This document shows positions 63,153 to 64,000 of a DNA stretch of 64,000 bases, piece by piece. The translations under genes and the position numbers were made by a program. Numbering within the stretch: position 1 is the first letter of the stretch; each line of letters starts with the position of its first letter. The notes beneath the pieces are model-generated. The model saw only the letters and a program-made list of their open reading frames with translations, was not told where the DNA came from and searched no databases. Origin of the DNA: Clostridia bacterium (GTDB lineage Bacteria > Bacillota > Clostridia > Oscillospirales > Acutalibacteraceae). The stretch is taken from positions 1 through 64,000 of the forward strand of contig JAFSGP010000031.1 of NCBI GenBank assembly GCA_017440755.1. Direction: 5' to 3'.

Positions 63153-63239
63153 GCCGCTGTGGTGGAACTGGCAGACACAAGGGACTTAAAATCCCTCGGT
63201 GGAAACACCGTACCGGTTCGATTCCGGTCAGCGGCACCA
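63153..63239 (+). tRNA. tRNA-Leu, anticodon TAA
   Basis: 87 nt with encoded CCA. Acceptor GCCGCTG/CAGCGGC, D-arm GGTGGAACTGGC, anticodon stem AGGGA/TCCCT with loop CTTAAAA, long variable arm (CGGTGGAAACACCG), T-arm CCGGTTCGATTCCGG. Class II tRNA reading UUA/UUG. Confidence 0.97.
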
Positions 63240-63276
63240 AATACCCCCAACACGCAGATGCGTGTTGGGGGTATTT
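63240..63276 (+). terminator. tRNA-Leu(TAA) terminator
   Basis: Long perfect stem: ATACCCCCAACACGCA, loop GA, TGCGTGTTGGGGGTAT, then TTT. Confidence 0.92.
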
Positions 63277-63277
63277 T

Positions 63278-63405
63278 GCACCACTGACCACGTCGCAGAG
63301 AATTGGTCTACTTTTTCGGTTTGCGTAGCAAATGGCGACTGTTAAAGTCGCCAAGAAAAAGTATAGGAGTTGGCAAAGCCAACTCCACGGTTCAGATTCC
63401 GGTCA
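63278..63405. repeat. 128-bp structured repeat, copy 1
   Basis: Differs from copy 2 (63443-63570) at a single base. Internal pairings include GACCA/TGGTC, an outer TACTTTTTC/GAAAAAGTA stem enclosing TTTGC/GCAAA and TGGCGACT/AGTCGCCA hairpins, then GGAGTTGGC-AAA-GCCAACTCC. The right end, CGGTTCAGATTCCGGTCA, resembles the T-arm of the adjacent tRNA-Leu(TAA) with one extra base in the loop; the ends TGACC and GGTCA are inverted. No coding capacity. Probably a small mobile or dispersed element of unknown type. Confidence 0.85.
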
Positions 63406-63442
63406 CCTTGATTTCTGTACATCCGTGTGTCGGGGCTGTTTC
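63406..63442. other. Spacer between the two 128-bp repeats
   Basis: 37 bp with no recognisable feature; repeat period 165 bp. Confidence 0.5.
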
Positions 63443-63570
63443 GCACCACTGACCACGTCGCAGAGAATTGGTCTACTTTTTCGGTTTGCGGAGCAAATGG
63501 CGACTGTTAAAGTCGCCAAGAAAAAGTATAGGAGTTGGCAAAGCCAACTCCACGGTTCAGATTCCGGTCA
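63443..63570. repeat. 128-bp structured repeat, copy 2
   Basis: Same as copy 1 apart from G for T within the TTTGC-GNA-GCAAA loop region. Same orientation. The high identity suggests recent duplication or strong constraint. The 86 bp to the right (63571-63656) show no feature I can support. Confidence 0.85.
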
Positions 63571-63656: not shown

Positions 63657-63685
63657 TTGACAATCCTCTGATATAGGAGTAATAT
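63657..63685 (+). promoter_or_regulatory. Promoter of the leader peptide-aminotransferase transcript
   Basis: TTGACA (63657-63662), 17-nt spacer, TAATAT (63680-63685). Confidence 0.8.
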
Positions 63686-63718
63686 ATATGCATCAAGTTC
63701 GAAAGGAGAGCCACGGAT

Positions 63719-63784
63719 ATGTTCAGTAGCTGTTATTATTACTTTTTTATGATGGACTGCCCGTGCTCTGCCGCCGCTCGCTGA
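63719..63784 (+). CDS. Tyr/Phe-rich leader peptide (21 residues)
   Basis: Short frame with a good ribosome site (AAAGGAGAG at 63702-63710, 8 nt before the ATG). Residues 5-12 are CYYYFFMM, that is three Tyr then two Phe codons in a row, followed by a Cys-Pro-Cys and Ala-rich end; the stop codon falls in a hairpin loop. This composition, with an attenuator-like structure after it and an aminotransferase gene 88 nt downstream, marks a ribosome-mediated attenuation leader sensing charged tRNA-Tyr/tRNA-Phe (inference). Confidence 0.75.
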   Translation: MFSSCYYYFFMMDCPCSAAAR

Positions 63785-63855
63785 TGCGAGCGTAGAGTTT
63801 ACGGACAGTCCGCAGCCGCATATGCCGCCGTGCATAGTGAGGGTGCGGATTTTTT
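63754..63855 (+). promoter_or_regulatory. Transcription attenuator downstream of the leader peptide
   Basis: First structure: GGACTGCCCGT (63754-63764) pairs with ACGGACAGTCC (63801-63811), one mismatch, enclosing CGCTCGC-TGAT-GCGAGCG (63775-63792). Second structure: CCGCA-TATGC (63816-63825) pairs with GCATA (63832-63836) and TGCGG (63844-63848) around a 7-nt bulge, followed by T6: a terminator before the aminotransferase. Stalling at the Tyr/Phe codons would cover the 5' arm of the first stem. I could not define the anti-terminator pairing by eye. Confidence 0.65.
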
Positions 63856-63872
63856 ATTTGGAGGTAGGTAAA

Positions 63873-64000
63873 ATGATCGCAAAGGATATGTTAGCCCTTG
63901 GTAAGAAAAGCTCGGTTATTCGTGAGATCTTCGAGTACGCCCGTGTGCGCCGCGGGGAGATCGGTGCGGAGAACGTGTTTGATTTTAGTTTAGGTAATCC
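63873..64000 (+). CDS. PLP-dependent aminotransferase, N-terminal part (runs off the window)
   Basis: Only the first 42 complete codons are present. The start (MIAKDMLALGKKSSVIREI) and the FDFSLGNP segment match class I/II aminotransferases of Clostridia annotated as aspartate/aromatic aminotransferases. GGAGG at 63860-63864 precedes the ATG. The Tyr/Phe leader upstream suggests a role in aromatic amino-acid synthesis or interconversion; the catalytic Lys lies beyond the window. Confidence 0.8.
   Translation, partial: MIAKDMLALGKKSSVIREIFEYARVRRGEIGAENVFDFSLGN

Follow-up and report, generated by a model that had tools for sequence, protein, structure and literature searches.

A predicted ribosome-mediated attenuator with Tyr and Phe control codons ahead of an aromatic amino acid operon in Clostridia

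The well-known trp and pheA attenuators of E. coli (Proteobacteria; RF01859) resemble the leader described here insofar as each has a leader peptide with codons for the end products of its operon and three mutually exclusive helices. In the E. coli trp leader the stop codon is placed so that a terminating ribosome covers the antiterminator segment, and the stop codon of the Clostridia leader is placed in the same manner. In Bacillota uncharged tRNA is usually sensed by the T-box (RF00230), from which the Clostridia leader would differ in sensing by way of the translating ribosome. Leader attenuators for histidine have been predicted in small groups of Bacillota genomes, for hisS*/hisZ in bacilli (PMC2965389) and in the B. 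cereus group, Peptostreptococcaceae and Erysipelotrichales (PMC9413887). The uORFC-13-1 motif found before aroF in Acholeplasma, a uORF that has one or more Phe codons and lies beside a terminator, is also a predicted attenuator; its 24 examples come from Acholeplasma and environmental DNA and are described with a Phe U-run (PMC8632094).

We analysed a leader located near the end of a 64,000-nucleotide stretch of DNA from a gut bacterium of the Clostridia, referred to as the window. Judged from the sequences of this locus and its relatives, the leader is very probably a ribosome-mediated transcription attenuator that measures the charging of tRNA with Tyr (and Phe) and controls an aromatic amino acid operon.

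The leader locus, its operon and its surroundings

The features of the locus are listed in Table 1. The original prediction had described a consensus promoter with a strong ribosome site, a 21-codon frame with consecutive Tyr and Phe codons and a stop codon in the loop of an inner hairpin, and all of these were located: the promoter as TTGACA-17-TAATAT, the ribosome site as AGGAG, the aromatic codons as Y6 Y7 Y8 F9 F10, and the TGA stop within the loop. It had also described two adjacent hairpins, the second with a U6 tract, followed by the aminotransferase. Folding gives a long hairpin at approximately 63754-63811 and a terminator hairpin at approximately 63807-63851, and the U6 tract is present, but the two hairpins are not merely adjacent; positions 63807-63811 are common to both, so the helices compete for the base of the terminator. 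A third helix, involving the leader Shine-Dalgarno region, was absent from that description. The aminotransferase does follow, and it heads an eight-gene aromatic operon that extends past the window. The RNA from 63750 to 63860 folds at -50.9 kcal/mol, compared with -36.5 +/- 3.4 kcal/mol in shuffles (z = -4.3), and none of 200 shuffles was equally stable.

Table 1. Coordinates of the leader features within the window.
Feature	Position	Strand	Details
Sigma-A-type promoter	63657..63685	+	-35 TTGACA 63657-63662, 17-nt spacer, -10 TAATAT 63680-63685
Segment 0, leader Shine-Dalgarno and spacer	63704..63716	+	AGGAG 63704-63708
Predicted anti-antiterminator pairing of segment 0	63708-63716 with 63761-63768	+	GAG-c-CACGG with CCGTGCTC
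Leader peptide ORF, 21 codons	63719..63784	+	MFSSCYYYFFMMDCPCSAAAR; matching ORFs in 59 leaders
Control codons	63734..63748	+	Tyr6-Tyr8 63734-63742, Phe9-Phe10 63743-63748
Segment 1	63754..63768	+	Alternative partners: segment 0 (via 63761-63768) or segment 2 (via 63754-63764); covariation
Inner hairpin	63775..63792	+	TGA stop 63782-63784 in loop; antiterminator tip, possible RNA polymerase pause hairpin
Segment 2, 3' arm of antiterminator 1:2	63801..63811	+	ACGGACAGTCC
Intrinsic terminator	63807..63851	+	5' arm AGTCCGCA 63807-63814; 3' arm TGCGGATT 63844-63851
U6 tract	63850..63855	+	Expected 3' end of the attenuated RNA
Aminotransferase Shine-Dalgarno	63860..63864	+	
PLP-dependent aminotransferase	63873..64000	+	ATG at 63873, continues to contig base 65063; NCBIfam NF005305

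The window stops 128 bases into the aminotransferase gene, and the remainder of the operon follows on the same contig in the order aminotransferase, pheA, aroB, aroC, an aroE-aroK fusion, aroQ, aroA and tyrA, with the genes closely spaced or overlapping. The aminotransferase matches NCBIfam NF005305 at 544.5 bits (cut-off 376), the pheA product is a prephenate dehydratase with a chorismate mutase domain, and the following genes match aro, phe and tyr families. The products of this operon convert shikimate-pathway precursors into Phe and Tyr, in keeping with a leader rich in Tyr and Phe codons.

No T-box or other Rfam family (Rfam 15) reached its gathering score at the leader locus, where the Phe_leader model RF01859 scored 17.5 bits against a gathering cut-off of 55. 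Ten matches to the T-box model were found in the same genome, four of them above the Rfam cut-off. The genes next downstream of the T-boxes at L042-L049, named from reading their sequences, include pheS, thrS, alaS and ileS, and the organism therefore uses T-boxes at other loci. T-box sensing and the predicted leader-peptide sensing coexist in one genome. Among relatives that lack the leader, no T-box was found at gathering score ahead of the orthologous aminotransferase.

Upstream of the leader lies a tRNA-Leu (TAA) at 63153-63239, followed by a terminator-like inverted repeat at approximately 63242-63276. Between the tRNA and the leader promoter is a 144-nt direct repeat (63262-63405 and 63427-63570; 97% identical, 165 nt apart), each copy of which has a perfect GGAGTTGGC/GCCAACTCC hairpin and which was not found elsewhere in the genome assembly. 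The sequence CGGTTCAGATTCCGGTCA within the downstream repeats resembles the 3' part of tRNA-Leu, and for this reason the repeats may stem from a duplication involving the tRNA end. In a relative, a Gut-1 RNA (RF01706; L055:1-66) lies beside a tRNA just upstream of the leader.

Distribution of the leader and conservation of its peptide

When aminotransferase orthologue loci were gathered without regard to the presence of a leader, the leader with its terminator was found directly upstream at 15 of 23, which is not expected by chance. A covariance-model search of 300 genomes of the family gave 21 with the leader, and one of 394 genomes of the order gave 30. A wider model added four from other parts of the class, beyond the order; applied to 398 genomes sampled from the phylum, it detected none beyond the class. 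Altogether there are 59 distinct leaders in ten family-level groups of the same class (Clostridia by record titles). The records with names are metagenome-assembled genomes of Oscillospiraceae or Clostridia from animal gut samples. The first genes behind the leader at the loci examined are the aminotransferase with pheA, pheA with aroB, or a DAHP synthase-like gene (MNFHRKLPIP...; L062, L063, L065, L066, L069, L074, L076, L084, L087, L094, L097, L098). The DAHP synthase-like gene is mostly followed directly by pheA. The occurrence of this last arrangement in many genomes indicates either transfer of the element from one first gene of the pathway to another or its retention at several of them. 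A pheA gene lies close downstream at nearly all loci examined; none was seen in the stretch fetched for L065. Searching ahead of more distant pheA homologues gave no Tyr/Phe-rich leaders beyond the group already known.

Aligning the leader across relatives, as the original prediction had proposed, showed that the Tyr and Phe codons and both stems are conserved in the 59 leaders. With these codons, the stems and the promoter all conserved and compensatory changes present, the earlier reading of the locus as ribosome-mediated attenuation is supported. In 56 of the 59, a promoter that matches the consensus at 10 or more of 12 positions lies about 30 nt ahead of the leader ORF. The ORFs have 17 to 29 codons, nearly all with a recognisable Shine-Dalgarno sequence, and always precede aromatic-pathway genes. 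Each contains 4 to 11 Tyr or Phe codons; among the 1,272 residues that follow the start in the 59 predicted peptides there are 208 Tyr, 209 Phe and 1 Trp. The enrichment is specific to the reading frame, with 5.95 Tyr or Phe codons in frame among the ten codons ahead of segment 1 versus 1.5 and 1.9 in the other frames.

The distance between these codons and segment 1 is also conserved. Counting back from segment 1, 58 of the 59 leaders have an aromatic codon at 14 nt, which is Tyr in 53, and 57 have one at 17 nt; nearer positions are occupied less often (11 nt, 93%; 8 nt, 63%; 5 nt, 7%). In a folding sweep that assumed ribosome footprint sizes, with a leading edge of 13 nt, the probability of the terminator base fell from 0.95 to 0.51 across A-site distances of 10 to 13 nt from segment 1. 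The peaks of codon conservation, at 14 and 17 nt, lie just beyond this switch point, so the model gives most weight to the very codons that are best conserved. In the present leader Tyr8 and Tyr7 occupy the positions at 14 and 17 nt. Phe9 (11 nt) and Phe10 (8 nt) are by geometry too close to segment 1 for antitermination, so that these two should add little. From this model Tyr6-Tyr8 should be the main signal in the leader of this genome.

The original prediction had offered the Met-Met and Cys-Pro-Cys codons as further stall points, and here the comparison goes against it. These residues vary in relatives (KK, TK, NK; CLC, CPF, RQC, YRR), the DNA that encodes them is constrained by RNA pairing, and a ribosome that had advanced so far would already cover segment 1. 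In L091, L008, L009 and L075 the residues at segment 1 are changed and the pairing is kept. In L084 (L084:1501-1653) the A run after the Tyr and Phe codons is one base shorter, through either a natural frameshift or a single-base assembly error; the segment 1 RNA is kept, with GGGCTGCCCGTC present as in relatives and read one frame over, giving KRAARLM instead of K-G-C-P. The comparison thus indicates that segment 1 is conserved as RNA and not as peptide.

Competing helices, ribosome states and alternative readings

Comparison of the leaders identified three mutually exclusive helices, all of which covary: an anti-antiterminator (0:1), an antiterminator (1:2) and the terminator (3:4). Helices 1:2 and 3:4 have alignment columns in common. 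In 14 leaders helix 1:2 had 90.5% of cells paired and double changes at 7 of 12 pairs, with a covariation score reached by no shuffle and slid registers that paired 22-40%. Helix 3:4, which together with a U tract stands ahead of the first gene, had 98.2% of cells paired. The larger counts, 85.3% for 1:2 in 55 leaders and 94.1% for 3:4 (slid-register controls for the two, 22-50%), lean toward these helices, because the search that yielded 44 of the 59 leaders used a covariance model with 1:2 and part of 3:4 built in; the first 15 leaders were collected without it.

A model with only helices 1:2 and 3:4 was replaced. Its no-ribosome folds gave termination, and helix 0:1 was sought for this reason. 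The arms of 0:1 pair on average at -15.2 kcal/mol within their own leaders versus -11.0 kcal/mol when swapped between leaders (z = -11.3; 0 of 20,000 permutations), and with 14 representatives below 55% identity z was -5.9; examples of the arms are GGAAAACGG/CCGTTTTCC in L055, GAACGGA/TCCGTTC in L007, GACGGAAA/TTTCTGTC in L009 and GGCAGTCC/GGACTGCC in L065. Control pairings (segment 0 with segment 2, segment 0 with reversed segment 1, upstream DNA with segment 1, and the codons with segment 1) gave z from -0.1 to -1.7. A cruder gapless 8-mer count pointed in the same direction (7.3 own versus 6.9 swapped pairs of 8), its smaller margin reflecting that the 0:1 register differs between leaders. 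In 58 of 59 leaders the pairing takes in 4 nt or more of the Shine-Dalgarno zone.

We infer from these pairings the folds that would form in cells and the direction of sensing. With no ribosome on the leader, the Shine-Dalgarno region would pair with segment 1, the terminator would form and the operon would be off. Equilibrium folding of this state gave a terminator-base probability of 0.84, which fell to 0.59 when segment 0 was scrambled, as the probability of 1:2 rose from 0.12 to 0.44. When charged tRNA is scarce, a ribosome stalled on the Tyr and Phe codons would break 0:1 and leave segment 1 just free, so that 1:2 could form, remove the base of the terminator and turn the operon on. With the ribosome stalled at the third-last Tyr/Phe codon the terminator-base probability was 0.48, or 0.93 with segment 1 scrambled. 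When Tyr and Phe are plentiful, the ribosome would reach the stop codon in the antiterminator tip and cover segment 1, allowing 3:4 to form and the operon to be off; with the ribosome at the stop the probability was 0.96. At equilibrium the stalled state is terminated about 0.5 on average across the leaders and above 0.9 in L009, L075, L078-L080, L088 and L099, so that in these relatives the order of transcription must favour 1:2. Helix 1:2 should be favoured in the stalled state, being transcribed before the terminator is complete. In 58 of 59 leaders, versus 47.5 expected from shuffles, the stop codon lies inside the inner hairpin between segments 1 and 2 (mean z -2.2). By analogy with the pause hairpin at this place in B. 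subtilis vmlR (PMC9226507), the inner hairpin may cause RNA polymerase to pause before it reaches segment 2.

Three other readings were weighed against ribosome-mediated attenuation with an anti-antiterminator. A two-hairpin attenuator lacking 0:1, in which an untranslated leader leaves the operon on by default, draws on six leaders (L004, L008, L035, L085, L098 and L100) where 1:2 is favoured without a ribosome. It is improbable, since with 0:1 most leaders favour the terminator when no ribosome is present and the swap test backs 0:1 better than it backs 1:2 (z -11.3 versus -9.7). We regard as still less probable, and quite unlikely, a nascent-peptide sensor of the TnaC or ErmCL kind, whose peptide would bind free Tyr or Phe or stall the ribosome by its sequence and not respond to uncharged tRNA. 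Conservation of R-F-Y-Y-Y followed by D-C-[PL]-C in a subset of leaders is what such a sensor might leave, but outside the Tyr/Phe run the residues are free to vary, at most positions Tyr and Phe replace one another, and the D-C-P-C stretch tracks RNA pairing, L084 reading the same RNA in another frame.

That the locus is a terminator with a small open frame and senses no amino acid, or that a protein or metabolite binds the RNA, is hardly credible and the least probable of the three. A strong terminator hairpin could by itself stop readthrough transcription, but nearly all relatives have their own promoter and a Tyr/Phe ORF, the three exclusive helices covary, the position of the codons fits the ribosome footprint and no Rfam riboswitch or T-box lies at the site. 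Comparative sequence evidence shows the leader frame, the control codons, the three competing helices, the promoter and the operon context.

The chances appear about even that throughout the family the Shine-Dalgarno region, as anti-antiterminator, also shuts the leader to further ribosomes, so that each transcript is read essentially once, and that a single Tyr codon 14 nt before segment 1 works as a ruler of fixed length that marks where the ribosome ends. If true, this would imply that the first ribosome trails RNA polymerase closely here in Clostridia, unlike the runaway transcription that has been reported in B. subtilis.

Relation to described attenuators

The leaders appear to form a genuine and apparently uncatalogued family of ribosome-mediated transcription attenuators, a kind of element that is itself already known. 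Within open-licence papers, searched without their supplements, no Tyr/Phe leader in Clostridia was found; a listing in a supplementary table is possible. With 59 examples in ten family-level groups it is a well-supported RNA family to catalogue, and it indicates trp-type attenuation of the shikimate/Phe/Tyr pathway across a wide range of Clostridia, here in an organism that has T-boxes at other genes, among them pheS. The switch would work only if the first ribosome stays close behind RNA polymerase along the leader, and the reported lack of such coupling in B. subtilis (PMC9226507) counts against it; for the same reason the leader is a natural place to test transcription-translation coupling in Bacillota. 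The built-in ruler, the spacing from codon to segment, can be tested base by base.

Like the Bacillota His leaders (PMC2965389, PMC9413887), the family would use leader-peptide attenuation in place of T-boxes, and it differs from them in amino acid and in the genes controlled. The uORFC-13-1 motif (PMC8632094) is set apart from it by its published description. The B. subtilis vmlR leader (PMC9226507) shares the uORF, an anti-antiterminator, a pause hairpin between the antiterminator arms and a terminator; it senses ribosome-stalling antibiotics, and the Shine-Dalgarno sequence of its uORF is single-stranded, whereas in the Clostridia leader it is part of the predicted anti-antiterminator arm. 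To the E. coli trp and pheA leaders there is no sequence relation, as the Phe_leader score at the locus indicates, and the Clostridia leader has Tyr besides Phe codons and an antiterminator tip formed by a separate hairpin that holds the stop codon. The unusual feature of the family, as the pairing comparison identifies it, is that the leader's own Shine-Dalgarno region acts as the anti-antiterminator arm; in E. coli that arm is the control-codon region, whereas in Clostridia it would be the Shine-Dalgarno and start region of the leader.
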